Assembly (NCBI GenBank): GCA_030149115.1
Contig: JASBSE010000401.1
Location: 1 to 47,330 of the forward strand
Length of the DNA stretch: 47,330 bases
Reading direction: 5' to 3'
Source: Winogradskyella sp.
GTDB taxonomy: Bacteria; Bacteroidota; Bacteroidia; Flavobacteriales; Flavobacteriaceae
Under the pieces are notes generated by a model that made no database searches, was not told the origin of the DNA, and was given only the letters and a program-made list of their open reading frames with translations. Position 1 is the first letter of the stretch. Every line of letters begins with the position of its first letter. The translations under genes and the position numbers were made by a program. This document shows positions 9,450 to 46,864 of this stretch, piece by piece.

Positions 9450-9471
9450 GTGATCGCGACAGGATTCGAAC
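9450..9471. repeat. attL, direct repeat of tRNA-Arg 3' end
   Basis: GTGATCGCGACAGGATTCGAAC identical to 46790-46811; rest of the tRNA is absent here. Confidence 0.92.
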
Positions 9472-9622: not shown

Positions 9623-9820
9623 TTAATCTATTAAGTATTTGTTGACAATTTCCTCTTCTATTCCGCTGTATTCAACAAACTCTTTGATTGTGATAAATTG
9701 ATATGACTCCTTTCCAAAGTAGTTTCTAATATCATTTAAAAGCTTACGCCCATAGCGTTCACTACGTCCTGTGATACGCTGAATATCTTTTGGGTATATG
9801 CAAGCTCTTTTTGGGGTCAT
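9623..9820 (-). CDS. Small putative helix-turn-helix protein
   Basis: 65-aa ORF MTPKRACIYPKDIQRITGRSERYGRKLLNDIRNYF... with HTH-like spacing; divergent from the 10045 cassette. Confidence 0.6.
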   Translation of the reverse strand: MTPKRACIYPKDIQRITGRSERYGRKLLNDIRNYFGKESYQFITIKEFVEYSGIEEEIVNKYLID

Positions 9821-9890
9821 AATACTCTATCTATGCTTTATCCGTACATCATCCATACTTCATTGTTTTATGATTATGGTGATGGTGATG

Positions 9891-9995
9891 CGTTGTTAAA
9901 ATGTTGGAAATCCCGATAGGGTTTTCAATATTTTAATGACGTTTTTGGTTGTATCGGAATGGATGACCGAAAACGGAATTGGATTTTTAACAACG
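9891..9995. other. Strongly self-complementary non-coding DNA (closing stem plus two internal hairpins)
   Basis: Closing arms CGTTGTTAAAA (9891-9901)/TTTTAACAACG (9985-9995), hairpin 9904-9928, hairpin 9940-9975. Confidence 0.75.
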
Positions 9996-10044
9996 TGCTA
10001 TAAAATTACGTGATTTGGTTTCATTAATCAAAAAACGAATTATT

Positions 10045-10800
10045 ATGGCAAAACAAACTGGTATTATTAAACTGAAAGGAACTATCGGTGGTATTTCCTT
10101 TTACAAAACGACTGATGGGCATCTAGCACGCGAAAAAGGCGGTGTTGACGGCAATCGTATTGCGAATGATCCTGCGTTTCAGAGAACTCGTGAAAATGGG
10201 TCTGAATTTGGTAGAGCTGGTAAAGGTGGTAAACTTTTGAGAAATGCTATTCGTATTCTTTTACAAAATGCAAAAGACAAACGTGTGGTATCTCGTTTGA
10301 CTAAAACGTTGGTTGCTATCACTAAAACTGACACCACCAATGAAAGAGGATCTAGAACACTTCAAGATGGGAATTTAAGCTTGTTAGAAAGCTTTGAATT
10401 CAATTTAGGTGGAAAGTTAGGAACAACACTTTTTGCTCCGTTTACGAATGCTTTTGACCGTGTTTCTGGTGATGCTACGGTTAACCTTGATGCATTTTCT
10501 CCAACGGTTAGAATTGCAGCTCCAACTGGAACAACTCATTTTAAGGTGGTAATGGGTGCTTCTGAATTGGATTTTGAGAATGAAACCTCAACATTTGAAA
10601 ATGATGATACTGCTATTCTGCCTTACACTGCTGCTGACACAGCTGCTATTGCCTTGACAGCTTCTTTGACTGCTAACTCAACGCTTCCTGTTGTACAGGT
10701 GCTTGGTATTGAGTTTTACCAAGAGGTAAACGGACAGATGTACGAGCTTAAAAACGGTGCTTACAACGCTTTGGCAATTGTTATTGTAGATACGCCGTAA
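10045..10800 (+). CDS. Conserved-looking hypothetical protein (beta-rich, unknown function)
   Basis: ORF with likely start at MAKQTGIIKLKGTIGGISFYKTTDGHLAREKGG; the upstream in-frame ATG at 10015 is less likely. Confidence 0.85.
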   Translation: MAKQTGIIKLKGTIGGISFYKTTDGHLAREKGGVDGNRIANDPAFQRTRENGSEFGRAGKGGKLLRNAIRILLQNAKDKRVVSRLTKTLVAITKTDTTNERGSRTLQDGNLSLLESFEFNLGGKLGTTLFAPFTNAFDRVSGDATVNLDAFSPTVRIAAPTGTTHFKVVMGASELDFENETSTFENDDTAILPYTAADTAAIALTASLTANSTLPVVQVLGIEFYQEVNGQMYELKNGAYNALAIVIVDTP

Positions 10801-10802
10801 GT

Positions 10803-11225
10803 ATGGAATTAGTGCTGCATAGAGCCTATTTTGAAGAGGGCACCAATGGTGCTCTCTTTAATTCTGATAGATTCCTTTGTCATACCATCGAATTGCCCTG
10901 GAACAATAACAAACGAAATATTTCCTGTATTCCTGAAGGCACTTATGAAGTTGAACCACGTTTTTCTAAACGATTTAAGCAGCATTTGATTTTGAAGTCT
11001 GTAAAAGGTAGAAGTTTTATCCTGTTTCATCCTGCGAATGATGCCTTAAAAGAACTTCAAGGGTGTATTGCTCCAGTAACTTATTTGAGTGGTATAGGAA
11101 AGGGCGTTTACTCTAAAAATGCTATGCAAAAACTGTTGTCTTTGGTGTATCAGGCTAAAGACCGAAAAGAAACCATTTTATTAACTATTAAATCACAGAA
11201 TTATGAACATTGCAGAGCGTTATAA
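10803..11225 (+). CDS. DUF5675-like protein
   Basis: 140 aa, MELVLHRAYFEEGTNGALF...CHTIELPWNNNKRNISCIPEGTYEV...FILFHPANDALKELQGCIAP.. resembles the DUF5675 pattern. Confidence 0.75.
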   Translation: MELVLHRAYFEEGTNGALFNSDRFLCHTIELPWNNNKRNISCIPEGTYEVEPRFSKRFKQHLILKSVKGRSFILFHPANDALKELQGCIAPVTYLSGIGKGVYSKNAMQKLLSLVYQAKDRKETILLTIKSQNYEHCRAL

Positions 11226-11445
11226 AAAACCAACTCCAAAATTCTTTAAAACTTTACGAAATATTGGTATCGCTTTAGCTACTGCAGGTGGTGCTATCAT
11301 AGCTGCACCAATAACAATGCCTGCCATTGTGGTAACCATTGCTACTTATATGACCGTTGCCGGAACTGTGGCTACCGCAGTAAGTCAAGCAGTTGTTACT
11401 GATGATGAAAACACAGAAACAGATGAGGTTGACGATGGATTATAA
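11203..11445 (+). CDS. Small membrane protein (holin-like in size and topology)
   Basis: 80 aa with two hydrophobic Ala/Gly-rich segments and an acidic C-terminus; overlaps the preceding gene. Confidence 0.65.
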   Translation: MNIAERYKKPTPKFFKTLRNIGIALATAGGAIIAAPITMPAIVVTIATYMTVAGTVATAVSQAVVTDDENTETDEVDDGL

Positions 11446-11623
11446 TACCAAATCTGCCATTATTGGTGGTACTTTCTTTTCATCAATTGTGAATATTGGT
11501 GTTGAAGATTTGATTACTACTATTATTTTCGCTGTTGTTGGTGCTATCGTAAGTTTCTTCGTTTCTCTACTACTTAAAAAGTTTATCACTTTTCTCGGGG
11601 CAAAGTGTCGTAGGAGGAAGTGA
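11435..11623 (+). CDS. Small membrane protein
   Basis: Likely start MDYNTKSAIIGG at 11435, overlapping the previous stop by 11 nt; hydrophobic segments and a basic C-terminus KCRRRK. Confidence 0.6.
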   Translation: MDYNTKSAIIGGTFFSSIVNIGVEDLITTIIFAVVGAIVSFFVSLLLKKFITFLGAKCRRRK

Positions 11624-11656
11624 TTATTGATGTTAAGCGGTTGGAAAGATAAATAA

Positions 11657-11687
11657 AGGGCATTTTCTAAAAAATGCTCTTTTTTTA
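11657..11687 (+). terminator. Intrinsic terminator of the four-gene cassette
   Basis: AGGGCATTTT-CTAA-AAAATGCTCT followed by a T tract. Confidence 0.8.
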
Positions 11688-11890
11688 TGCGCGGTGTTGA
11701 GGTGGGTAAATGAAAAGAGCAATACCCTGATAAGGGATTGAGCGAATGTAATGCATCCTACCGCAGACACAAGGCAAAACATTAATAATTGCTGTAACCT
11801 ACACCGTTGAAATGGGTGGTGGGGAAAAGATGGAAAAATTGTGTGTTCTAAATTTCAATGCCAGTTCTGAATTGAGCGTGGGGAATGTCG

Positions 11891-11965
11891 GCTATTTTAC
11901 ATAATGGCGTTATAGTACAGAAAGTGAATGAATGCTACTATAACTACCCGTTATGTAAACATAGC
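11891..11965. repeat. Large imperfect palindrome
   Basis: GCTAT-TTTACATAA-tggcg-TTATAGTA ... TACTATAA-ctacccg-TTATGTAAA-c-ATAGC; 22 paired positions. Confidence 0.75.
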
Positions 11966-11970
11966 TTAGG

Positions 11971-12090
11971 GTAGTTTTTGGCGTGAGCGATGGGAACAGC
12001 TCTTTGCTTTTTTGCTGTACCAATTTTGTGAATAATTTTTTTAAGCAAAACAAGCAATGTGCTGTGTGCGGGTTGGCAGCCAAAAACTAC
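11971..12090. repeat. Inverted repeat enclosing structured non-coding sequence
   Basis: Perfect 12-bp arms GTAGTTTTTGGC (11971-11982) and GCCAAAAACTAC (12079-12090). Confidence 0.7.
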
Positions 12091-12288
12091 ATGCGCGTTG
12101 GCGAGCGGAACAAACCAAAAGACAGAGGATTTTTGCTTTTGCAACAAACTGGGTTTTGGTTTGTGGGGAATTACTTCTTTACAGACATAAAGGTTTCATA
12201 TAAAAAAAGTTTTCTATTCTTTTTATCAATATTAACGACTTAAACCTGCCAATTTCTCTAGATCATTAATTTAAGATACTAGACAAAA

Positions 12289-13092
12289 CTATTCTTCTTC
12301 GTCCTTTGAAAATTCTTCACTTAATTTATTAATTGCATTATGCAATTTTTTATATGGATATAAGCGATTTGAAGAAAATCCAATTTTTAAATCATAAAGT
12401 GAAAACATCTTATTTACATACTTGCATGCTAAATCAACATAATGAAAATCAGCATCAGTGCTAAATTTACCAGGTCTTCTAAAGTTCTTATGAAGCGGAT
12501 TACTAGACTCTATCAAGTTATATTTAGCTATATGATTCCACATGTTGTGTGCGTTTACGCTAAATGGTTGGTAAACATAATTATAAAAATCTATGCACCC
12601 AGCTTCTTCTGCCATTTTTCTTACACTAATTTCTGACCACTTTGATAGATTAACTTCTGTTAGAAAGACATACCGTTGGGAATTAATCCAATTTTCCATT
12701 GCTTCAATATATACTTTATTCTCTTCAAGATTTCCAGAAGATTCTAATTCTTTTTTTTGATGTGCAATTTGTAGTTTTTCTTGACCTAGCCCAAAAAAAA
12801 TAAATTTTCGAGACCTTTCAAGTGGATCTTCCAAAATCCAAGCTAGGTTTATATAATTATCCGCTAAACTCCTTAAAATCATAGGGGCCATATGACCATT
12901 CCATGAAGAACTACAACTTAAAAGATGTTCAGTAATTGTTATTTGTCTAGCCAATATACCCCCAACCACTTCATAAATTTCTGGTGTATTAAGATCTTTT
13001 TGCCAAGAATTCCATCTTTCCTTTAATTCAAATTGAATGTCCTCTATATATAAATTAAGTATATGTTGTATCTTTTCATTAATGTTTTTCAT
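12289..13092 (-). CDS. DUF5677-like protein
   Basis: 267 aa helical protein with ITITEHLLSCSSSWNGHMAPMILRSLADNYINLAWIL, resembling DUF5677. Confidence 0.6.
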   Translation of the reverse strand: MKNINEKIQHILNLYIEDIQFELKERWNSWQKDLNTPEIYEVVGGILARQITITEHLLSCSSSWNGHMAPMILRSLADNYINLAWILEDPLERSRKFIFFGLGQEKLQIAHQKKELESSGNLEENKVYIEAMENWINSQRYVFLTEVNLSKWSEISVRKMAEEAGCIDFYNYVYQPFSVNAHNMWNHIAKYNLIESSNPLHKNFRRPGKFSTDADFHYVDLACKYVNKMFSLYDLKIGFSSNRLYPYKKLHNAINKLSEEFSKDEEE

Positions 13093-13836
13093 TTAATCAA
13101 AATAGAAATTATTAATTACGTATGGCTCTATTTCAAAAGCTCTATTCCAAAAGTATTTTTGCCAATCACTATTTTCTATATCCCTCTTTTTGCTTTTTAT
13201 TATTGGGTATATTGATGCTCTAATAGCTGAAGCAACTTTTCTAGATAATTCAGTAGCAGGATATTTTTCTATTTCTGGTAAATGAATTAAAGAACTTTCT
13301 TTAGTTACTCGTAAAATATCCAATAGAAATAAATGATAAATAATGTTCCCTAGTGCCCAAACACTTTCTTTATTCCTTTTTCCATCAATAGACTTAAGAA
13401 TCCTCTTAACCTCGGAAACATCTTCCTGATTGTATTCCGGAATATCAGAAAATAAAAAATTAAGAGGTGATTTAGGAAATACTTTAATCAATGGAAAGAT
13501 ATTAGGTTTTATCCTATCTAATAAATGGTTTGAAGCTTTTAAAACTTGTTCTTTTTCTGATTTAGTTAAAACCTCAAAATCGCTAATAAACGAAAAGCAT
13601 TTTGTGGTTTTTTCTTGTCTAATATCCCTTATTATTTTGAGAAAATTCAATGAAAGTTCAGCCGATTGTGACACACCTAGTTTGTCATTCAAAAATGCTA
13701 ACCAAATTATCTCTGGAACAATGTTGTCCATGAATGATACTTCTATGAATTGAGTTTGCCAATCATCAAAATAATTAAGAAAAGGTGGTTGTAGTTTTTT
13801 TCCAACTTGCTTATGATCTTTTAAAACTTTGTTCAT
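13093..13836 (-). CDS. Hypothetical protein
   Basis: 247-aa ORF directly abutting the next gene (TAA-ATG); no recognised motif. Confidence 0.75.
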   Translation of the reverse strand: MNKVLKDHKQVGKKLQPPFLNYFDDWQTQFIEVSFMDNIVPEIIWLAFLNDKLGVSQSAELSLNFLKIIRDIRQEKTTKCFSFISDFEVLTKSEKEQVLKASNHLLDRIKPNIFPLIKVFPKSPLNFLFSDIPEYNQEDVSEVKRILKSIDGKRNKESVWALGNIIYHLFLLDILRVTKESSLIHLPEIEKYPATELSRKVASAIRASIYPIIKSKKRDIENSDWQKYFWNRAFEIEPYVINNFYFD

Positions 13837-13850
13837 AGTAACCTGCTTAT

Positions 13851-16832
13851 CTATATTTTCGAATCATAACTGATTGGTTGAATCGAAATAATTTTTATGG
13901 ATTCATCAGTATTCTCAACTGTTATTGATTTTTTATCTAAATCTATTTTAGATTTAATGTCTTTACCATCAAGCATTTTTTTAAAATGTTGAAACATCTC
14001 GGGTATGGATTTGTGATAATTACCTGATTGTAATCTAATAAAAGTATAAAGCGTATCATTTACATTGTACCGCCTTAACTCAATAAACCCAGAAATAGCA
14101 TTAGTACTCATATTTGTATTTGTAATGTCCCAAAGGTCTTTATTATCTGATTTTAATACTATTTCGACAATAGTTTCTGCTTCATCTTGGGCAAGGTTAT
14201 TAAAATCTATTACTCTTTGAAGCTTTTGCTTAATAAAGTTAAAACTTAAGAATTCAAATCTAATATATCTACTAAAATCGGTATAGCTTTCTATCTCCAA
14301 AAATCGAACATATTCTTTCAATTCGAATGTAATAGGTTCTGGCAAATTATTATTTATAAACTCCTTGTATTTTTGTTTGGATCCAAATAATTGTGCTGCA
14401 TAATCTGATGTTTTTAGCATTTTGGTGGTCCAAGCATCATTTTGGGTCATTTGGGCACACAATAAAGTGATATCGTTTTGAGACCAGAACTCTATCGTAA
14501 TTGGGTTAATCGTATCAGCAGTATGAAATTTTCGAACATCATGATAGGCATGATAAAAAGAGTAGTCATAAATGCTCCATAAATTGTTTTGCTTATCGTC
14601 TAATAACTTTTTATATAAAGAAAGTGACAGCTCTTTAAGATCATCTTCTGTGGTTCCCCAATCAGAAAAATCAAGTCTAATTCTAGATTCACTTATGAGT
14701 GCTAAAAATTTGATTTTACTTTCAAGTTTAAAATTATCCTTATCGATAAACTCTTGAATTATATATTTCCAGATACTTGGTTTTTCATTATCTGTCCAAA
14801 AATCATTATTTCCTATTTTAAGCTTTAATTGACGCCCAATAAATTCAGATAATATATTCCAAACAGATGTTGAATGAGTAGCATAAGATTCTGCATCATT
14901 AAAAATATATAGCAATATTATTATTGCTTTTAAAGCCTCATCTTTATCTATTGTATTGAAATATGCTAGTCTATTTAAAATGCTATTCGTATGCCCTTCA
15001 TTCAATAACTTATTTAAATTCTCAAAATCATTATCAAAATTAAATATGCTTTTAAATTTGACTTCACTTAAATCTTTTTCTTGTATTTTCTGTTGAAGTA
15101 GTTTTCGAAGATTATTCTCAAACTTTATTGAGGTATGGCTGTCAGCAATATTTTCTTTACCAAAAAGCACAATTAATGTCTTTATTAATAAAATATTTTG
15201 CTGTTTAGTTAAGTTATTAGTTTCGTTAATCTTTGTTTCTTTATCAATGTCTTTTGAGATTTCATACTTGCTAAAATCTATATTAAGCTTTTGATTTAAA
15301 TGAAAAACCCTATATCTTCTCATTGCTTTAAAAGTATCACCTTTATCAGAATCATTTTCGGTTTCTACCAATTCACAAAGATTTGTTTCTGGATTATAAG
15401 GAATTATGGTTGACCAATTATTATTTAAAAATTTTATTGCATAAGGAAACGTCATTTTTAAATAAGTAAAATTTAAAAAATCATTTGTGTCAAGCTCATC
15501 TGGTAAGGACTTAAAATCAAAGACCAATTGATTCACCAAGCGTTTTACACCTCTATAGTTTGAAATATAATCATCAAATAAATTATCTTCTCTATAGATA
15601 CAAGTTTCAACATTTCTAACAAAATCTGCTTCAAAACCTAAATCTGTTTGTTTAAATAAACCTATGAAATCAGTTTTTAGCTGGGATTTTTCAATTTCTG
15701 GCAAATAAACTTCTAATTGAAAAAATTTGTCTACAAATGTATGGTCGGCAATATCATTTTTCACTAATAAAGACTCAAGTACATAATCTTTATCTAATGC
15801 TATTAGAAAAATGAAGTTTTTAAAATTTGCAGTATTTCTAACTAACTTTAAGACTTGTAGAACTTCACTATTTGAAAGTCTATCTAGATCATCTATAAAT
15901 ACTATATATTTCTTATTTAATATATTTAAAGTATCATTAATTTTTTTATAAGTATCATAAGAAGACGAATCAGAAAATATGCTCGAATTAGGTTTAAAGA
16001 ATTCCGAAATACTTTTATTCTTGTACAATTTTAAAAGCTTATCAGAATAACTTAAAAATTGATTTGACAACCTTCCACTATATTTATTTATTTCGGCACT
16101 TAACTGTTTGAAAAACTCTGAAATAATATCAGTTTCACTATGATTTAGATATGGTAAAAACTTTAAATGAATCGTATGCTCATTACTTTTCTCTTCTAAC
16201 TTCTCTTCAATTAGGCTAATCAAACTTGATTTACCATTACCCCAAGGACCAACAATTCCAATTGTAAATGAATTTTTAAAATTTGATCTTTCTAAATATT
16301 CAACAATTTTTTCCGCTCTTTTGTGGTAGTTTAACTTGTCATCGCCTTTTAATAAAACAGGATCATCAGAGATAAACGGATTTGGCTTTCTTTCAAACTC
16401 TTTTTTACTTAATAAATTTATAGCAGTTAGTATAATTGTAAGAACCAACAATACACCTAAAAAGTCAATGTACAATAATTTTGAAGAAAATAATATGAAG
16501 TCCCATCCATCTTTATCAATTCCCCACTTCAATACTACATAAATCAAGCTCGACACAACTAATGAATGAATCAAAAAGATTGAAGGCTGATACTTTTTTA
16601 AAGCTATTTTGTATAAAATATACATTACAGCTATAGTAAATAAAAGAACAAAAATAAATTTAGGAATTTGTAATATTAGCTTTTCATCGATAGTAAAATA
16701 TTTAGAAATTATTCTATTAACTGTAGATGATGCTAAATAGAACATTAAGATTCCTAATACATAAACTGATGAAACCTTAAACATTCTATTTTCAAAAATC
16801 TTATCGAAAAAACTTTCTATTCTCTTTGGCAT
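13851..16832 (-). CDS. KAP-family P-loop NTPase, membrane-anchored
   Basis: N-terminal TM helices, Walker A GIVGPWGNGKSSLISLI, Walker B KYIVFIDDLDRLSNSEVLQVLKLVRN. Confidence 0.88.
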   Translation of the reverse strand: MPKRIESFFDKIFENRMFKVSSVYVLGILMFYLASSTVNRIISKYFTIDEKLILQIPKFIFVLLFTIAVMYILYKIALKKYQPSIFLIHSLVVSSLIYVVLKWGIDKDGWDFILFSSKLLYIDFLGVLLVLTIILTAINLLSKKEFERKPNPFISDDPVLLKGDDKLNYHKRAEKIVEYLERSNFKNSFTIGIVGPWGNGKSSLISLIEEKLEEKSNEHTIHLKFLPYLNHSETDIISEFFKQLSAEINKYSGRLSNQFLSYSDKLLKLYKNKSISEFFKPNSSIFSDSSSYDTYKKINDTLNILNKKYIVFIDDLDRLSNSEVLQVLKLVRNTANFKNFIFLIALDKDYVLESLLVKNDIADHTFVDKFFQLEVYLPEIEKSQLKTDFIGLFKQTDLGFEADFVRNVETCIYREDNLFDDYISNYRGVKRLVNQLVFDFKSLPDELDTNDFLNFTYLKMTFPYAIKFLNNNWSTIIPYNPETNLCELVETENDSDKGDTFKAMRRYRVFHLNQKLNIDFSKYEISKDIDKETKINETNNLTKQQNILLIKTLIVLFGKENIADSHTSIKFENNLRKLLQQKIQEKDLSEVKFKSIFNFDNDFENLNKLLNEGHTNSILNRLAYFNTIDKDEALKAIIILLYIFNDAESYATHSTSVWNILSEFIGRQLKLKIGNNDFWTDNEKPSIWKYIIQEFIDKDNFKLESKIKFLALISESRIRLDFSDWGTTEDDLKELSLSLYKKLLDDKQNNLWSIYDYSFYHAYHDVRKFHTADTINPITIEFWSQNDITLLCAQMTQNDAWTTKMLKTSDYAAQLFGSKQKYKEFINNNLPEPITFELKEYVRFLEIESYTDFSRYIRFEFLSFNFIKQKLQRVIDFNNLAQDEAETIVEIVLKSDNKDLWDITNTNMSTNAISGFIELRRYNVNDTLYTFIRLQSGNYHKSIPEMFQHFKKMLDGKDIKSKIDLDKKSITVENTDESIKIISIQPISYDSKI

Positions 16833-16994
16833 TTTAATTAATTGTTAAATACAAAAAGCCAATGAAATATCATTAGCTCCTGAATTGTAAAATAATTTGA
16901 ACTATATCAGTCCTAAATATACGAATTATGTGTTTGAAGTCTTACGAAAATCCTTGTTGGCTATTCTTTCAAAAAAATGTGTTTTAATAGAAAA

Positions 16995-18035
16995 CTATTT
17001 AAGAGTTTTATGATGTAAATCAATACCTTCTATTTCATAGACTTGAGTAGTGCGACAATCTAATTTATCTGGATTGAAAATGGCTAAATTATAACCAACA
17101 GAGTATAACGAACTTTGGTATTCAACTCCATCAAATCCCAAAGACTTTATAAATTCTGAAATATATTGTGTTGGGATATAATCTAACTGCTTATCTAATT
17201 TTCTGATTGGTAAGGAAATTTCTTTTTGCAGTGTTTGAATGAAAGGAACATAAATTAAGAAGTCTTCTATTGCTTCATATTCTGACCAAGGAATAGGGTC
17301 ATCTTTAGGGTTTCTTAAATTTAAAATTTTCAAATCTTCTTCTAATTGAAATTCGCCAACAGTCACATAGTCAAATAGTGAAGCTCGCGTTTCGTACAAT
17401 GATGTTTTTAACGAATCTGCCACATATAAATAAGAAATACCTTTAGGGTTAGCTCTACCACCAGTTGTTAATTCTTTAGGGGGGTTTCCCATTTTATCAG
17501 GCGAAAAACCATTTTTATCAGAAATACGACATCTATAAAATATTCTTCCTTTTTTAATTTCCTTATAGAAGCTTTCGTGCATAAAAAAGTTAGTAAGCTT
17601 ATTTAAGTCAATTGTGTTTTGAATGTGATACCGGTTTGTATATTTTATTTCTTCTTTAAAGTCTTCCCAAATACCGTGAATTTGGTTTGTTTCGGTAAGT
17701 AAATCAATCTTAATTTCAGAAGATACATTATTGTTAAACAAATCTTCAATATCTTCAATTTCATCTGCAAAAATTGCTTGGAAAAGTTCTTTAGAATTTA
17801 CAACCTTGTTTGTAGTAAGATTAAAGTCTTTTTTTAAAGATTGTGGCAGATCAAGTTCTGAAGCTTCATTAACTGTATAAAGCGATATGATATTTCTAAA
17901 AAATGGTGCAAGTTCCCTAGCTGCATATATGGATACATTGGTCGATTTACAGAAATTGCAATTACCGACTCTATCATCTGCATTTATAATACTAATGAGA
18001 TAGTCACTGGTAAAGCAGTTAACACAACAATTCAT
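16995..18035 (-). CDS. RES-domain protein with N-terminal zinc-ribbon/HEPN-like region
   Basis: CCVNC...CNFC Cys pairs; FYRCRISDKNG, ANPKGISYLYVADSLKTSLYETRA, FDGVEYQSS typical of RES toxins. Confidence 0.82.
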   Translation of the reverse strand: MNCCVNCFTSDYLISIINADDRVGNCNFCKSTNVSIYAARELAPFFRNIISLYTVNEASELDLPQSLKKDFNLTTNKVVNSKELFQAIFADEIEDIEDLFNNNVSSEIKIDLLTETNQIHGIWEDFKEEIKYTNRYHIQNTIDLNKLTNFFMHESFYKEIKKGRIFYRCRISDKNGFSPDKMGNPPKELTTGGRANPKGISYLYVADSLKTSLYETRASLFDYVTVGEFQLEEDLKILNLRNPKDDPIPWSEYEAIEDFLIYVPFIQTLQKEISLPIRKLDKQLDYIPTQYISEFIKSLGFDGVEYQSSLYSVGYNLAIFNPDKLDCRTTQVYEIEGIDLHHKTLK

Positions 18036-18037
18036 AA

Positions 18038-18973
18038 CTATATATTAGTAATTACCAGTTCGATGTGGTTCATTACAGATAGTTTTTTAAGAGTTCCTAG
18101 ACCAGGAAAATGACCTCTTTGTTGCAAGTCCCTAAAAATTTCTACCGCTCGGGTATGAATGTTTTGTTGATTACACCAGGCTACTAATTTATCTAAAGCT
18201 TCAATAAACTTACCACCGATATCTGAAGTGTCACCATTTGAATCTGAAACAAAATGCTTTACCTTAATTTTACCTGTACCGTCAATATAAGATAGATGAA
18301 TTGCCACAGCTCTTGGTAAAAATCCAGAATCAGAATAATTATCGCCTATTGTGATAAAGTCACCAAATCCTACAAAACCGTCTTCTTGATAGTATCTGTA
18401 TTCTTCAGAAAAACTACTTTCTTGGTCTAAATAATCAGCATTTTTAGATAACTCCTTAAAATAATCATCAAGAGACACCCTTGTATTTTGTTCAAATTCT
18501 CGGTAATATCTTCTACTTGTTTTAGAGAAGTAAATTAAATTATAAACAACATTTAGGCTTGAACTTAACAACTCAATGTTTTCTGTTGTTGTTTCAGCAT
18601 TATGAATCAGAGTTACGCCATTATAATCTAGGTTTAAACCCTCAATAAATGGAATTAAAGTATCTAATTGTCTTGATGAAAAAGCATCGATAATTACAGC
18701 TAATTGATAATTTTTGTAATGATTTAGATTTTCAGTAAGAACATCAATTATTACTTGACGGTTGTTTTTTAAATCTCCAACTCTAGGGTTAATAACAACA
18801 TTAAAGTTGACATTTTTAGAAGCCAGTTCCTTTAAAGAAGATTTTAATGTGGAAGAACTCTTCACAGGTTCTATTACTGGTGAAGTCTTTAAAATATCGT
18901 TTGGAAATAAGCCACATAAATCTCTTAATGCGATTAACTCAAATTGTTTACCTCTGACATATGGGAAATACAT
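18038..18973 (-). CDS. sce7725-like (Beta-protein-like) family protein
   Basis: MYFPYVRGKQFELIALRDLCGLF start and position between an sce7726-like gene and a RES gene. Confidence 0.65.
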   Translation of the reverse strand: MYFPYVRGKQFELIALRDLCGLFPNDILKTSPVIEPVKSSSTLKSSLKELASKNVNFNVVINPRVGDLKNNRQVIIDVLTENLNHYKNYQLAVIIDAFSSRQLDTLIPFIEGLNLDYNGVTLIHNAETTTENIELLSSSLNVVYNLIYFSKTSRRYYREFEQNTRVSLDDYFKELSKNADYLDQESSFSEEYRYYQEDGFVGFGDFITIGDNYSDSGFLPRAVAIHLSYIDGTGKIKVKHFVSDSNGDTSDIGGKFIEALDKLVAWCNQQNIHTRAVEIFRDLQQRGHFPGLGTLKKLSVMNHIELVITNI

Positions 18974-19839
18974 ACTTTGCTTTTTTGTGATAAGAAATAT
19001 TCTAATTGTTGGTATTCAATATCTGAAAAATCCAAAGAATAACAAATATGCTTAAGCGATTCTGGGATTTGTCTTTCTTTAAAAACTTCCGGATTAGAAA
19101 TGTTCCTATATTTTAATTTTTGTACAACTAATTTTTGAAATTCTAAAATATCTATTTTTTTTGACATCTTAAGACATTCTCTAAAAATTTGGGTATTAGG
19201 AACATCAGGCACAAATTTAAAATAAGATCTCATCAAACTAATGTATTCATCTTTTCGTAATGTCTTGAAAAGAGCATCGTGCTTGAAAGTAAAGGTGTTT
19301 TTTTTAGCTTCTTTTACAGTTTTTAGTGCATTTCGTTGAGTTAACTCAATTATACCAATATTAGAATTATAATATTTCATTAATAGGTTTGGTATATGCT
19401 TTGAGCTTGTAACTATATAGATTTTATCTGCAAATTTTTCGTAATCAGATAACTGTTTATCTAACTTTTCCAGACCATCTAATTCTGTTTTGATTTCATA
19501 TATGCGAGCTTCACCGTTTAAAAGAACAAAGTCAGCAATTGAATTACCTATTTTAAATTCATTTAATGCTATAGTGCTTTTCAAACTATATTTTCTCAAT
19601 AAAAGCTTATTGATAAGAATGTTCTTATAAACATACTCATTTTTATAATTGCGAACTAAGGATTTGTAAATTTGATTTAGAACCTGAAGATTAGTAGTAC
19701 TCTCTTTGACTTTTGTATATCTATCGACACGATAAAATGTATCAAAATAATCTTCGTCTCTCACTATTTTTTTAAAATTAGCGGTAGAAAAAATTTGAGC
19801 TAAACTCCTAATTTGATTTAAATCTTTTGTTATCTCCAT
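18934..19839 (-). CDS. sce7726-like family protein with PD-(D/E)XK-like motif
   Basis: IADFVLLNGEARIYEIKTELDGLEKL (D...ExK); overlaps the next gene by 40 nt. Confidence 0.7.
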   Translation of the reverse strand: MEITKDLNQIRSLAQIFSTANFKKIVRDEDYFDTFYRVDRYTKVKESTTNLQVLNQIYKSLVRNYKNEYVYKNILINKLLLRKYSLKSTIALNEFKIGNSIADFVLLNGEARIYEIKTELDGLEKLDKQLSDYEKFADKIYIVTSSKHIPNLLMKYYNSNIGIIELTQRNALKTVKEAKKNTFTFKHDALFKTLRKDEYISLMRSYFKFVPDVPNTQIFRECLKMSKKIDILEFQKLVVQKLKYRNISNPEVFKERQIPESLKHICYSLDFSDIEYQQLEYFLSQKSKVCISHMSEVNNLS

Positions 19840-19922: not shown

Positions 19923-20582
19923 TCAGGTTCTTTTGTCTTTACTTTCCTTATCAAAAGCAATCAAATTGAATAGTTGTCGCATTCTGGAACGTACTCTATT
20001 GCCGTATCTTTCTTCTAATTCTTGTGCATTTAAATTTGTTGTGGCGTGAGTTCTAGTTTTACGCTGAAGAAATAAATCGTAACGAGATAAGAGGATTTCG
20101 CCCATAACATTGCAATCTTTACCAAAATGTCTTCCAGTTGTTTCTACTCCTAAATCATCAAAGCAATAGAAATTACTACTTCCATATTCTTGAATGGTTT
20201 TGTAGCCAATATTGTTGAAAGCAAACGTGATGTTTCTTGCTGGGATTAATTCGTAAGATTTTTGGTGTGGTACGATGTTCCTTAATAATTTCATTAAACT
20301 GGTTTTACCACAACCAACAGGACCCGATAATAAAATCCCCTTGTTTGGATCTATATTTAGTTTTGCACAGGCTTCAAAATCACGAATGAAATAAATGCAT
20401 AGTTTATAAAGCACCACCTCATCTTCTTCATAAATCTTGAAGTTTTTGCCAAACATCAATTTCCCTTTTGCATCGAGGTAAATGAGTATGCTTTTGAAAT
20501 CATACTGAATACAATTGTCTTTTAACTCGCCAAGTTTGTATTGGACTCCTTTTTCGATGATTATGTGAGGTTGATTATTCAT
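19923..20582 (-). CDS. DnaC/IstB-like ATPase
   Basis: Walker A GILLSGPVGCGKTSLMKLL, Walker B FYCFDDLGVE. Confidence 0.8.
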   Translation of the reverse strand: MNNQPHIIIEKGVQYKLGELKDNCIQYDFKSILIYLDAKGKLMFGKNFKIYEEDEVVLYKLCIYFIRDFEACAKLNIDPNKGILLSGPVGCGKTSLMKLLRNIVPHQKSYELIPARNITFAFNNIGYKTIQEYGSSNFYCFDDLGVETTGRHFGKDCNVMGEILLSRYDLFLQRKTRTHATTNLNAQELEERYGNRVRSRMRQLFNLIAFDKESKDKRT

Positions 20583-20661: not shown

Positions 20662-21198
20662 TTAAAGTGGTTCGTTATAATTTTTATTTTTAGTTGTCCT
20701 AAGGTTGTCCGAATTTGGGACACTGCTATTTTGTTTTAAATCAATTTCAGAATCATTAAAACCTGAATTTTTAAAATTTTTCTGTTTATTACTGTTTTTG
20801 TTTTCTATAGTTTGTATATGTTTATATATAGGTACCAGTGCTTGTCCACTGCTTGTCTCGATTTGAGTAGAGTTGTGTCCTACTACTTGTCCAGAACTTG
20901 TCCCAAATTTGAGCATCTTAATTTTACTCCCTCTATACGGATTGTGGGATGGGAAATACACGATATATTTCCAATGATTTAATTCCTTGATGCATCTATG
21001 ATAGGTAGATTTAGAGCCTATTTTAGATAGTTGCATAACCTCATCACGGTTTATAAAAAACTCTTCTAAAAATCGGTTTAAATTCCACAACTGAAATAAG
21101 GCTATGTATAGGCTTATGTGGGTTGGGTTTAATCGACTATCTTTAGAGAATTGGTTGAAAACTGCGTTGAGATGTTTGATATAGTTTACTTCTTCCAT
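20662..21198 (-). CDS. Putative replication/HTH protein of the mobile element
   Basis: 178-aa ORF next to the DnaC-like gene with a winged-helix-like N-terminal half. Confidence 0.6.
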   Translation of the reverse strand: MEEVNYIKHLNAVFNQFSKDSRLNPTHISLYIALFQLWNLNRFLEEFFINRDEVMQLSKIGSKSTYHRCIKELNHWKYIVYFPSHNPYRGSKIKMLKFGTSSGQVVGHNSTQIETSSGQALVPIYKHIQTIENKNSNKQKNFKNSGFNDSEIDLKQNSSVPNSDNLRTTKNKNYNEPL

Positions 21199-21240: not shown

Positions 21241-21519
21241 CTAAAATTTGTTATGGATGCGGTTTTCTTCCATTACTTTTAGGATTTCTTCGTAGTCGTA
21301 ATAGATAACACCACCAACTTTAGTGTAGGGTAGTGTGCCATTGATACGCAAATTTTGTAATGTTCCTGGTGAGATGCTTAAAAGGTCTCTTACTTCTGGT
21401 GATTTCAACCATTTTTTAGGTGCAAAACCTGATTGATGGTTAATGATTGCTTTGATGTCTTCCAGTAATTCTTCTTTAAATTCTCGTAGGTCTTCGGTAG
21501 TAATAATTGTTGCTGCCAT
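21241..21519 (-). CDS. Helix-turn-helix (excisionase-type) DNA-binding protein
   Basis: KKWLKSPEVRDLLSISPGTLQNLRINGTLPYTKVGGVIYYDYEEILKVME. Confidence 0.88.
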   Translation of the reverse strand: MAATIITTEDLREFKEELLEDIKAIINHQSGFAPKKWLKSPEVRDLLSISPGTLQNLRINGTLPYTKVGGVIYYDYEEILKVMEENRIHNKF

Positions 21520-21663: not shown

Positions 21664-22512
21664 CTAAATCCCTTCATCGGTATCTTCCATTCGTTTTAGC
21701 AATCCTTTATTTAATGTGGTAAGGAATTTTGCTCTATCGGCTTTCCGAGTCCTAATTTCAAGGAATGTACGACGGTATTGCCCTAAATCTATTTCAAAAA
21801 TATGTTCAAAATATTCTGCAATATCTTTTAAATCAGCAGCACCATTATTAAAGACACCTTCTGTGTGTAATGCATAAACCAGCTCAATTAAGGCTACTTT
21901 TGGGCTTGTCCAAATCATTTTCAAGTTCGGTTTGCGTTGTGATTTTTCGCCATTGTCTTTATTACCAATTAATACTAAATTATTTTCTAAATACAATTGA
22001 ATTAAATCGTTTGCCAATATTTTGGCCACTTTATAATCGTGCGATGTTGAGAAACTTGTATCTGCTTCGAAATAGTAACTATCTAAAGACATCTTAATAT
22101 CAAACCTACTACGCAGGAAATATTTATGGTCTAAATAGGTGCTTCTTGAACGGTAATATCTATAAAACTCTAGCTCATTATCAAAAAATGCTTTTAGCTT
22201 AACTAATTCATTATTGTAATATTTTTTTACTATTCTATTACCTCCATTTGGTTTCTTCATTTCGATTTTAAAAATCGTGTTATAGTAAATGAGTTTAGAG
22301 GTAAATTGTGGCTTTATTTCTTTAAAGAACTTAATTTCTTCAGCATCTGTCTTGAACTTTGTTTTTTGTACTACAATCTTTAATGCTTTGATGGTTTTTA
22401 AAATGACTTCAATTGCACGTTCACAACGTGTGGATTCATTGTCTATTTCTAAATTTATAAAGCTTAATTGATCGTTAAGATTAGTTAGTAGGCTGTTTAT
22501 TTTTGAACTCAA
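21664..22512 (-). CDS. RteC-family protein
   Basis: 282 aa with KIMWTSPKVALIELVYALHTEGVFNNGAADLKDIAEYFEHIFEIDLGQYRRTFLEIRTRK, typical of RteC. Confidence 0.88.
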   Translation of the reverse strand: MSSKINSLLTNLNDQLSFINLEIDNESTRCERAIEVILKTIKALKIVVQKTKFKTDAEEIKFFKEIKPQFTSKLIYYNTIFKIEMKKPNGGNRIVKKYYNNELVKLKAFFDNELEFYRYYRSRSTYLDHKYFLRSRFDIKMSLDSYYFEADTSFSTSHDYKVAKILANDLIQLYLENNLVLIGNKDNGEKSQRKPNLKMIWTSPKVALIELVYALHTEGVFNNGAADLKDIAEYFEHIFEIDLGQYRRTFLEIRTRKADRAKFLTTLNKGLLKRMEDTDEGI

Positions 22513-22630: not shown

Positions 22631-23158
22631 TTATTCAACTATCAATTTCTCTATTGCATTTTCATTAGAAGTAAAATCTTTTCCTGAAAACAGAACATAT
22701 TTTGCTTTTGTTTTTATGGAAGTAGAACTATCTTCAAGTTCAACAAAAATGTTTTCCAAGTATAATTTACGATTATTTATGGTTACATAAACTTTAGATT
22801 TTTGGTTAGGATAATGAATTAGATAAAATTTTAATTTTGATGATGCTGCCAAATGCATTTCTATAAGGTTCGGTGCAATTATTTTTGTGTTCATTCCGTA
22901 TGCAAAATCTTTTTGCACTTTACTTAATGGTTTTTTAACACCTCCTTCTGTATAGACAATGCGATACTCAACTATTGGGTTCTTTGTATTAATAGATTCT
23001 CCTTCCATATTTGCATCATACACATAAGTATTATGATTATTGCTGTGTTGTATATAAAAAAGTCGTGTCGCTGTTTTTTCAGGTTTTGGGTAGTTTTCCT
23101 GTGAAAAGACAATTGTGTTGCTAAAGAAACAAAAGAAAAAAGGTAATAAAGTCTTCAT
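22631..23158 (-). CDS. DUF4833 protein, secreted (copy 1)
   Basis: Signal peptide; RLFYIQHSNNHNTYVYDANMEGESINTKNPIVEYRIVY; closely similar to 36567-37094. Confidence 0.8.
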   Translation of the reverse strand: MKTLLPFFFCFFSNTIVFSQENYPKPEKTATRLFYIQHSNNHNTYVYDANMEGESINTKNPIVEYRIVYTEGGVKKPLSKVQKDFAYGMNTKIIAPNLIEMHLAASSKLKFYLIHYPNQKSKVYVTINNRKLYLENIFVELEDSSTSIKTKAKYVLFSGKDFTSNENAIEKLIVE

Positions 23159-23194
23159 GCAAAATCTTATATGTTTAATTTTTAAAAAATTAAA

Positions 23195-23962
23195 TTAATT
23201 AAGTATACGTAACAGTTCATCATTTTTTTCTCTAGCATATTCATAACCAGCTTTGTAAATTTCATCAATTTTTGAAAAATCAAATGTACCATAGGTTTCC
23301 ATTTTTGGCGGTTCCATATAAATATCACAAAGTTGTTTCTTATCCTCCACATTATAATTAATAGAAACTTTAACTATACGTTCTATGATGGCTTTATAAC
23401 TCCATTTTACAATGGGCGATTTAGGAATATTAGATACATTAACACCTATTATTTTATCGCATTTACCTTTAATCAAATTTGTAGGGAAATTGTTTAAAAT
23501 ACCGCCATCACATAAATAAGCATCATTAATATGCACAGGCTCAAATACCAAAGGTACAGCACAAGATGCCTTTACAGCTGTTGAAATGGATCCTTTATTA
23601 AATACTACTAATTCTGCATTTATCAAATTAGTTGCTGTTACAAAGATTGGTATTAGTAACTGATCAAAATCGTCGTGAGGAATGTATTTGTTTAAAATAC
23701 GTTTAAAAATATTGGGGGTAAACAGTCCTGCGGACTTTAATTCCAGACTAGAGCGACTAAAAAACTTTTCTGCTTTACCAATTTCTAATATTTCTTTAGG
23801 TTCATAACCTGCAGCTAAAAAAACACCAGCCAATGAACCGGCACTTGTTCCTGAAATAACGGAAGGTTGTATTCCAATTTCGTATAAGTATTGAAGCACA
23901 CCTAAATGTGCCATTCCTCGAATACCTCCTCCAGATAATGCAATGCCAATGGTTGGGTTCAT
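23195..23962 (-). CDS. Patatin-like phospholipase (copy 1)
   Basis: GGGIRG, GTSAG (GxSxG), DGG catalytic motifs. Confidence 0.93.
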   Translation of the reverse strand: MNPTIGIALSGGGIRGMAHLGVLQYLYEIGIQPSVISGTSAGSLAGVFLAAGYEPKEILEIGKAEKFFSRSSLELKSAGLFTPNIFKRILNKYIPHDDFDQLLIPIFVTATNLINAELVVFNKGSISTAVKASCAVPLVFEPVHINDAYLCDGGILNNFPTNLIKGKCDKIIGVNVSNIPKSPIVKWSYKAIIERIVKVSINYNVEDKKQLCDIYMEPPKMETYGTFDFSKIDEIYKAGYEYAREKNDELLRILN

Positions 23963-36566: not shown

Positions 36567-37094
36567 TTATTTTACTATTAATTTTTCTATTACATTTTCG
36601 CCGGTAATAAAATCTTTTCCTGAGAACAAAACATATTTAGCTTTTGTTTTTAGGGAAGTTGAACCTTCTTTAAGTTGAACAAACATGCTATCTAAGTATA
36701 GTTTACACTTGTTTATAGTTACATAAACTCTAGGTTTTTCTTTATCACTAAAAGTGAGATAGAATTTTAACTTTGATGATGCTGCCAAATGCATTTCTAT
36801 AAGATTTGGCGCAATTAATTTCGTAATCATTCCGTAAGCAAATTGCTTTTGAATTTTATTCAATGGTTTTTTAGCACCGTCTTCTGTATAGACTATTCTA
36901 TACTCATTAATTGGATTCTCAGTGCTAATAAAATCTCCTTCCATATTTGCATCATATACATAAGTATTATAGTTATTACTATGTTGTATATAAAAAAGTC
37001 TTGATGCTGTTTTTTCAGGTACTGGGTAATTTTCCTGTGAAAAGAGGATGGAATTAATAAAAAAGCAAAAGAAAAAAGAAAAAAAAGTTTTCAT
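36567..37094 (-). CDS. DUF4833 protein, secreted (copy 2)
   Basis: Likely start MKTFFSFFFCFF (37094); closely similar to 22631-23158. Confidence 0.8.
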   Translation of the reverse strand: MKTFFSFFFCFFINSILFSQENYPVPEKTASRLFYIQHSNNYNTYVYDANMEGDFISTENPINEYRIVYTEDGAKKPLNKIQKQFAYGMITKLIAPNLIEMHLAASSKLKFYLTFSDKEKPRVYVTINKCKLYLDSMFVQLKEGSTSLKTKAKYVLFSGKDFITGENVIEKLIVK

Positions 37095-37131
37095 ACAAAA
37101 TTCTATTTGTTTGTTTTCAATAGAAAATAAA

Positions 37132-37896
37132 TTAATCAAGGAAACGTAACAATTCATTCTTTTTTTCTTTAGCATAAACATACCCAGTCTGGTATATTTC
37201 ATCTGCTTTTTTGAAATCGAAAATTCCATAGTCTCTAATACTTGGTGGTTCTATATATACATCGCATTTATATTTTTGAGTTTCTACAGAGTTGCCAATT
37301 GCTATTTGAACTGTTCTTTCAATAATTTGTTTATAACCTATTTTACCTTCTATGGTGTTTATGCGATTTACATTGACGCCAATGATTTTATCGACTTTAC
37401 CTTCTAAAATATTTACAGGAAAATTATTTAAAATACCACCATCACTAAGGTAGATTCCTTCAAATAAAACAGGTTGAAAAACCAATGGTACACAACAAGA
37501 AGCTTTTACAGCTGTGGCTAATGAACCTTCATTAAAAATTTTTAATTTTCCGTTATTCAAATCTGTTGCTGTGATGAATAATGGAATTTCTAATGACTCC
37601 AACGTTTCCTGAGCAATATGTTTTTTAATTATATTCTCGAATATATCTGTTGAAAATAACCCTACACCTTGTCGTTTAAATAGGCTTGAATAATTAAAGA
37701 ATTTTTCAGATTTTCCTATTTTAAAAATTTGTTTAGGCTCAAAGCCTGCTGCATAAAATGCTCCAACTAAAGCACCTGCGCTTGTACCAGAAATAACAGA
37801 AGGTTTTATGCCTAACTCTGTTAAATACTGTAACACGCCAAGATGTGCCATACCACGAATACCGCCTCCAGAAAGTGCTAAACCTAGTTTACTCAT
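37132..37896 (-). CDS. Patatin-like phospholipase (copy 2)
   Basis: GGGIRG, GTSAG, DGG; similar to 23195-23962. Confidence 0.93.
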   Translation of the reverse strand: MSKLGLALSGGGIRGMAHLGVLQYLTELGIKPSVISGTSAGALVGAFYAAGFEPKQIFKIGKSEKFFNYSSLFKRQGVGLFSTDIFENIIKKHIAQETLESLEIPLFITATDLNNGKLKIFNEGSLATAVKASCCVPLVFQPVLFEGIYLSDGGILNNFPVNILEGKVDKIIGVNVNRINTIEGKIGYKQIIERTVQIAIGNSVETQKYKCDVYIEPPSIRDYGIFDFKKADEIYQTGYVYAKEKKNELLRFLD

Positions 37897-45304: not shown

Positions 45305-46561
45305 TTATTTTGATTTAGAATGAATCTTTTGATTGTTTTTATTAATCATCTTAATCTTTAAAGTATTAATATCTTCACTTACTTTTCTTTCAATAACTCT
45401 TGCATAAATTTGAGTAGTTGCAATTTTTGTATGACCTAATAATTTTGAAACCGTTTCTATGGGAACGCCGTTACTTAAAGTTATAGTTGTAGCAAATGTA
45501 TGTCTTGCTATGTGAAAAGTTAGGTTCTTTTTGATTTTGCATAAGTCTGCTATTTCTTTTAAATAAGCGTTTATCCTTTGATTAGATAATCTAGGAAGTA
45601 TTCCATTATTCGCAACAACTCTTGGATGGTTTTCATATTTAAAAACTAGCTCTAATGCCTTATCTAGAAGTGGGATTTTTACATTAGTCTTTGTTTTCTG
45701 CCTTTTAGTAATTAACCAGTCGTTACCATCAATACCTTTAACAATATTATCTCTGGTAAGATTATTTAGATCTATATAAGAAATACCAGTATAGCAACTA
45801 AATACAAATAAATCTTTAACTATGTTTAGCCTATTAACAGGACTGTGAAAGTTTTCTAATTTCAATAATTCACTTTCAGAAAGGAACTCTCTTTCTCTCT
45901 TTTCAAAAGAACTCTTAAACCTTACAAAAGGATCTCTGTCTATCCATTCTAAATGGTATGCCATAGTAACCATTTTACGCAACCTCTGTAAATGTTTCAT
46001 TGCAGTATTATTACTGATTTTTCGTTGGTGGTCTGTGGGTTCGTGTGCTTTTAAATAGTATTCAAAATCTACAATAAAAGAATAGTCTAAATTTGATAAG
46101 TAGATATTGTCTGTTTTGATTTTTTTAGACAAAAAGGATTTCAAGTAATTTTGAGTTGTCTTGTAGTGCCTCATTGTGTCTTTGTGAAGATTTTTGCTCA
46201 TAGTGGTATTGTGGTATTCGAAAAGCTCTAGTAAACTTCTGTGTTGTTCGTCTTCCCCTAAATATCGAGCTTTAATAGCTTGAGCAGTTATAAGCTTGTT
46301 TTCGCTCAATAGTTGTTCGTAAGCCAAGTAAATTTGGCTACGAACTTGTTCTAAAAATCTATTAAATAATTTGGCTTCTTGGTTGCTGCCTTTTAGTTTG
46401 CTCTTTGCAGAATCCCATTCGGATAAAATGACTTTTCGCTTTAAACTGATGTTAACTCTTTTACCGTTTACAGTTACTCTAGCATAAACCGGTACCTGGT
46501 TGTTATTTAATCGTGAAGTGTTAACCCAAAATAGAAGGGAAAATGTTGACCGAGTTCTCAT
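45305..46561 (-). CDS. Site-specific tyrosine recombinase/integrase
   Basis: SAM-like N-terminal domain, CYTGISYIDLNNLT (catalytic-region Arg position occupied differently), HIARHTFATTITLSNGVPIETVSKLLGHTKIATTQIYARV. Confidence 0.95.
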   Translation of the reverse strand: MRTRSTFSLLFWVNTSRLNNNQVPVYARVTVNGKRVNISLKRKVILSEWDSAKSKLKGSNQEAKLFNRFLEQVRSQIYLAYEQLLSENKLITAQAIKARYLGEDEQHRSLLELFEYHNTTMSKNLHKDTMRHYKTTQNYLKSFLSKKIKTDNIYLSNLDYSFIVDFEYYLKAHEPTDHQRKISNNTAMKHLQRLRKMVTMAYHLEWIDRDPFVRFKSSFEKREREFLSESELLKLENFHSPVNRLNIVKDLFVFSCYTGISYIDLNNLTRDNIVKGIDGNDWLITKRQKTKTNVKIPLLDKALELVFKYENHPRVVANNGILPRLSNQRINAYLKEIADLCKIKKNLTFHIARHTFATTITLSNGVPIETVSKLLGHTKIATTQIYARVIERKVSEDINTLKIKMINKNNQKIHSKSK

Positions 46562-46789: not shown

Positions 46790-46811
46790 GTGATCGCGAC
46801 AGGATTCGAAC
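46790..46811. repeat. attR, direct repeat within tRNA-Arg
   Basis: GTGATCGCGACAGGATTCGAAC identical to 9450-9471. Confidence 0.92.
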
Positions 46812-46864
46812 CTGTGACCGTCTGCTTAGAAGGCAGATGCTCTATCCAGCTGAGCTACGCGACC
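46791..46864 (-). tRNA. tRNA-Arg (anticodon TCT)
   Basis: 74 nt cloverleaf GGTCGCG...CTTCTAA...GGTTCGAATCC...CGCGATCA. Confidence 0.97.

Follow-up and report, generated by a model that had tools for sequence, protein, structure and literature searches.

Conserved five-gene module with proposed lysis functions at the attachment-site end of tRNA-integrated genomic islands in Bacteroidota

The Pseudomonas tmRNA islands I23, I44 and I55 begin with a tyrosine integrase and finish with AlpA, carry defence cargo and have no transfer genes of their own (PMC12595487). They resemble the Bacteroidota islands analyzed here, including the one in our window (the whole analyzed stretch of 47,330 nucleotides from Winogradskyella sp.), in the end-placed integrase, the small regulator at the opposite end, the tRNA-like direct repeats, the defence cargo and the lack of their own transfer genes, whereas their hosts, target and genes are different and the accessible part of the source mentions neither a 251-aa protein like the one described below nor a lysis set (PMC12595487). 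In the Flavobacteriales, the 10K genomic island of Riemerella anatipestifer occupies, as the window island does, a tRNA-Arg site and encodes a tyrosine integrase; its excision and circular form were detected by PCR (PMC6764341). A 24-base pattern derived from the att repeat of this 10K island had no match in 398 order-level genomes. PICIs and other phage satellites share with the window island an int gene, an excisionase-like gene, replication genes and the lack of a full virion gene set. Unlike these satellites, the window island has no recognized terminase small subunit or capsid-interference gene, possesses its own proposed lysis genes and is larger. Bacteroides IMEs such as NBU1 have an integrase and an RteC-like regulator in common with the window island, which differs from them in the lack of a mobilization relaxase among its Pfam matches.

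The window contains a 37-kb island with the terminal 22 bp of the tRNA-Arg(tct) 3' end at either border. The intact tRNA-Arg(tct) gene (46790-46864, minus strand) includes the proximal attachment site (46790-46811), and the tRNA-distal attachment site (9450-9471) is an exact copy of it. The tyrosine integrase gene (45305-46561, minus strand; Pfam Phage_integrase, SAM_5 and Arm-DNA-bind_5) is located at the island end beside the intact tRNA, and the genes studied here lie at the opposite end, just inside the tRNA-distal attachment site. The comparison of empty and occupied sites, proposed as a check in an earlier sequence-only reading, revealed the empty site in three genomes (G004, G008, and G009), where the orthologue of the left-flank gene is directly followed by tRNA-Arg-Pro-Ser. 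With border repeat, integrase by the tRNA and empty site all present, the window island is a tRNA-integrated genomic island of the tyrosine-recombinase type. The small autonomous module that had been suggested is instead the part of a large integrase island that adjoins its attachment site. Three other islands carry, at the corresponding end, integrases 55-64% identical to that of the window. The same plan was observed at tRNA-Pro in the islands of G011 (22 kb) and G001 (29 kb), both with a 16-bp tRNA-Pro repeat at each end, as well as at tRNA-Arg in an island of about 33 kb in G016, with the integrase beside tRNA-Arg.

Four plus-strand open reading frames ending in a terminator (11655-11682), all reported by the sequence-only reading, were present at this island end. 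The first gene (10045-10800) encodes a 251-aa protein that matches no Pfam or PHROG family. Its length had been given as 261 aa, counted from TTG 10015; homologues from all sources begin at ATG 10045. The second gene (10803-11225) had been described as DUF5675-like, and its product is a full-length member of Pfam PF18925 (E = 7e-31, 106.9 bits against a cut-off of 26.7). The third (11203-11445) and the fourth gene (11435-11623) encode membrane proteins of 80 and 62 aa, respectively, and homology to relatives indicated ATG 11435 as the best start of the latter. The four-gene unit is real but was drawn too narrowly, as a fifth, divergent gene (9623-9820, minus strand) belongs to it. This gene encodes a 65-aa helix-turn-helix-like protein, and its association with the 251-aa gene is conserved.

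Iterons of 11 bp (consensus about TATCCATACTT) are arranged in tandem at positions 9821-9866, immediately upstream of the 65-aa gene. Self-identity across 88 loci was 0.491 at a lag of 11 (0.302 in shuffled sequence, standard error 0.007) and 0.428 at a lag of 22. The 65-aa protein has no Pfam match and matches weakly to excisionase/Cox and regulator families in PHROG (E 0.015-0.17). The iterons fit a small DNA-binding protein of this kind, which may act as an excisionase (recombination directionality factor) and/or as regulator of the operon. The intergenic stretch between the two divergent genes (9821-10047) has an RNA fold z of -4.9. A conserved hairpin between these genes (9885-10000) was considered and rejected, as it is restricted to the nearest relatives and missing from L064, L068 and other loci.

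In a scan of bacterial genomes, at least 573 relatives of the 251-aa protein were matched, of which 80 loci from Flavobacteriaceae, Chitinophagaceae and other Bacteroidota were kept for counts. The four plus-strand genes occur in order in 69 of these 80 homologous loci, a recurrence far beyond chance, and all five genes, including the 65-aa gene, occur in 64; several loci without the full order are contig ends. The co-occurrence across Bacteroidota that had been put forward as a check was therefore confirmed for relatives above about 60% identity. Distant homologues (roughly 30-45% identical) are present in one to five copies per genome, mostly without lysis genes and in some cases with a 65-aa-like neighbour. 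Homologues devoid of these neighbours, which had been named as evidence against the earlier reading, were thus found among the distant members, and this evidence applies in part. Since DUF5675 and the two small membrane proteins are missing from the distant loci, only one branch of the family has the lysis genes. Four further, highly diverged homologues without lysis genes were seen in the assembly of the window itself (G000, contigs C424, C189, C495, and C66; L002-L005), and a related copy was seen in G011 (L052), where it immediately follows an MnmE-like gene. No publication describing this five-gene module was found in the literature.

In 42 of the 80 loci, a 3'-end fragment of a tRNA (Pro, Arg, Ser, Asp or Tyr) was detected 450-930 bp to the left of the 251-aa gene, in a single orientation throughout. 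None was oriented the other way, and a control stretch contained no fragment. The search was made with a library of 28 tRNAs, all from one genome, and the 38 loci without a fragment count against this placement. On the protein tree the target tRNA switches at least 10 times, which means that the module keeps its place while targets change. The four plus-strand genes are a conserved end-piece of a widespread Bacteroidota island family that inserts into tRNA genes. Between the copies from Lacinutrix sp. and Tenacibaculum soleae, identity is 99.86% across the 4,193 bp that extend inward from the tRNA-Pro att site, and their left flanks are unrelated. Comparison of the sequences lends good support to the integration site, the position of the module, its conservation and its horizontal transfer. 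A circular 25.3-kb record from Marivirga (p1) contains in one row the genes for an initiator-like protein, an HTH protein, the integrase, the 65-aa, 251-aa and DUF5675 proteins and the two membrane proteins. The integrase stands directly beside the module in p1, as a circularized island predicts; this record is supportive only, its integrase and 251-aa genes have broken frames, and it may be decayed or badly sequenced.

The origin of the module from phages was considered as well. A search of 50,697 phage records yielded no homologue of the 251-aa protein, so that a confinement of the family to ordinary tailed prophages, the second finding that would have spoken against the earlier reading, was not observed. 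IMG/VR gave a single distant match, which adjoins a type III restriction system and lies beyond the Mu-like phage genes of its contig, and an origin from a free-living viral contig was rejected. Capsid, terminase, portal, tail and relaxase families were not recognized in the window island, in agreement with the earlier statement that no ordinary phage genes are near the cassette, and no phage structural family was among the top PHROG matches of 148 neighbouring ORFs in relatives. Prophages carry lysis genes and an integrase, and the module could on this ground be regarded as what is left of an ordinary tailed prophage. This view is at odds with the recurrence of one short gene set in dozens of intact copies, and an ordinary tailed prophage was rejected on the absence of the 251-aa homologue from the phage records and of structural genes from the island and the neighbouring ORFs; a prophage remnant is very improbable.

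The structured non-coding DNA that had been noted on both sides of the genes was only in part attributable to the module. The left side corresponds to the attachment site and the iterons. The right side (11597-12180) was considered as an element end or a packaging site and rejected, because it is a dispersed, cargo-associated repeat that lies outside the module and occurs elsewhere without it. The repeat consists of sub-blocks at roughly 11597-11880 and 11933-12175, the second of which ends in the hairpin AACAAACCAAAA...TTTTGGTTTGTGGGGAA, and relatives have several copies per genome, beside cargo genes. Cargo genes were found inserted between the sub-blocks in relatives, and the repeat is possibly a recombination site for gene cassettes.

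The adjacent defence-like cargo of the window island (12289-19839, minus strand) comprises a DitA-like pair, a KAP/PifA-like NTPase, a RES-HEPN protein, a 311-aa protein and a cll-family protein; PycTM also belongs to this cargo. Two adjacent ORFs (12289-13836) each match one half of PADLOC DitA, which looks like the splitting of a single defence protein. Further minus-strand genes encode a DnaC-like helicase loader (19923-20582; phrog_50, E 6e-22), a protein called initiator-like from its position (20662-21198), a 92-aa HTH excisionase-like protein (21241-21519; assigned by PHROG scan of a near-identical relative) and RteC (21664-22512). The pair of DnaC-like loader and initiator-like protein is common to the islands of G011, G001, and G016. 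A DUF4833 and patatin-like pair is present twice in the window island (22631-23962 and 36567-37896), suggesting duplication. In other loci, 148 island-side ORFs gave 525 PADLOC families and 139 chromosome-side ORFs gave 130, numbers that refer to families and not to systems. This location in defence islands would suit a module that is itself an anti-phage defence by altruistic lysis, with the 251-aa protein as the sensor of infection and the lysis genes as the agents of early cell death; a sensor combined with membrane or wall effectors is known from the logic of abortive infection. PADLOC gave no match for the module (0 families for the 251-aa and DUF5675 proteins), and the module stays at the attachment site in dozens of islands whose cargo differs, a fixed placement that is backbone-like rather than cargo-like. 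The 65-aa partner and the iterons, moreover, point to recombination or regulation, and altruistic lysis appears unlikely as the function of the module.

The AF2 model of the 251-aa protein (pLDDT 92.5, pTM 0.80) comprises a beta-hairpin arm (residues 12-30), a long helix (43-68), a further helix (81-93) and an eight-strand beta domain (133-249). Residues 1-110 carry a net charge of +12 and residues 111-251 one of -12. A search of the model against the PDB and viral structures gave no match below E 0.001, and the only similarities were generic Ig/C2-type sandwiches. Judged by its model, the 251-aa protein is a well-folded new family. In L155, a DUF6266 (PF19781) gene sits between the 65-aa gene and the 251-aa gene. 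DUF6266 proteins resemble the 251-aa family in an N-terminal hairpin-like arm, a conserved central helix motif and a beta-rich C-terminus; however, the family model matched none of 30 members of the 251-aa group at E 0.1. The common layout and the tandem position suggest that both families are probably distant kin. In another Bacteroidota genome (L154), tandem DUF6266 genes adjoin two tyrosine integrase genes. No publication on DUF6266 was found in the literature.

It is a reasonable guess that the 251-aa protein binds DNA and assembles, and it is a candidate DNA-binding/coat or release protein. A bolder proposal, which we regard as doubtful, is that the protein, with its basic arm and helices and its acidic beta domain, is a new DNA-binding coat or packaging protein, and that the island builds its own non-canonical transfer particle, which is freed by its own lysis genes. 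If true, this would be a virus-like element without any recognized virion gene. The 251-aa protein might also be a secreted product freed by the lysis genes in the manner of a bacteriocin, as in colicin operons a protein gene is followed by lysis genes. Such a release would be at odds with the lack of an immunity gene and of a toxin domain, with the high conservation of the 251-aa sequence across genera and with solo copies without lysis genes, and we give it hardly any weight.

The DUF5675 family was found in 154 phage records. Three microviruses, which have 4-8 annotated genes, offer no other plausible lysis enzyme, and in a Mu-like phage the DUF5675 gene is located just after Mor, the late activator. 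Gly87 is invariant in the DUF5675 proteins of the islands, and Cys88 and His76 are present in 68 and 67 of 68 proteins, respectively. The best sensible fold matches of the predicted structure (pLDDT 88.5) were weak and fell to L,D-transpeptidases (Tlde1a, TM 0.46; Ldt, 0.42; E > 0.04). No functional test of DUF5675 was found in the literature, where the family is named only in passing in phage genome papers. The protein is best read as an L,D-transpeptidase-like enzyme for cell-wall lysis. The 80-aa protein has hydrophobic stretches at about residues 21-60, a relative of it has a weak holin match (E 0.16), and no phage homologues were found. The 62-aa protein has a hydrophobicity maximum of 2.68 and a basic tail, and a relative matches weakly to phrog_937 “hemolysin” (E 0.003). 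Both membrane proteins, which are conserved in order, are holin candidates by size and hydrophobicity only. The minimal lysis/release module of the sequence-only reading thus persists as a conserved cassette on a mobile element, for which lysis and release are probable; on the evidence of the gene set, lysis of the cell is likely to be self-encoded.

In the explanation that we favour and consider probable, the genes are the attachment-end module of tRNA-3'-end integrase islands and serve a satellite-like island that is excised, replicates and lyses the cell with genes of its own. The far-end integrase would excise the island, aided by the 65-aa protein, which would bind the 11-bp iterons next to its own gene and the attachment site. 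In the excised circle, integrase and module would become neighbours, and the circle would replicate with the initiator-like protein and the DnaC-like loader. The divergent operon would then produce the 251-aa protein and the three-gene lysis set of DUF5675 wall enzyme and two holin-like proteins. This set would open the cell, and the island DNA could exit free, bound to the 251-aa protein, or in the particles of a helper phage. In this cycle, the action of the 65-aa protein as an excisionase, the replication and release of the island, the lysis of the cell and the function of the 251-aa protein are inferred. The weak L,D-transpeptidase fold match, the holin assignment by size and hydrophobicity only and the distant 251-aa homologues without lysis genes were counted against this explanation.

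A rival and less likely explanation is that of a pure phage satellite, in which a helper phage packages the island and the module redirects the packaging of the helper or alters the timing of lysis. An element that has an integrase, an excisionase-like protein and a helicase loader but no structural genes shows the layout of a satellite, and the lack of capsid and relaxase fits it as well. A jumbo phage moves I55-type islands, in which integrase and AlpA occupy opposite ends and the cargo is defensive (PMC12595487). However, neither a gene for packaging or interference (terS, cpm, ppi, psu, sid or a similar one) nor a cos/pac or capsid-size feature was recognized in the window island, and islands of 22-37 kb are larger than usual satellites. 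A full lysis set is, moreover, rare in phage satellites. Because no packaging or interference gene was recognized and no helper is known, membership in the satellites is not established. By analogy, the island may work like a phage satellite or a “hitcher” island such as the Pseudomonas I55 type (PMC12595487), and its own lysis genes would then be a new trait.

Defence islands that are integrated in tRNA genes and lack transfer genes are common, and their movement is an open question. The island family described here carries a strictly placed and strictly conserved gene set that resembles a release machine, together with a well-folded novel protein family. The module gives context to the uncharacterized families DUF5675 and DUF6266, and the signature of 65-aa, 251-aa and DUF5675 genes is a marker for locating such islands in Bacteroidota genomes. 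How such islands leave cells becomes, with this module, a question that is testable at one operon.
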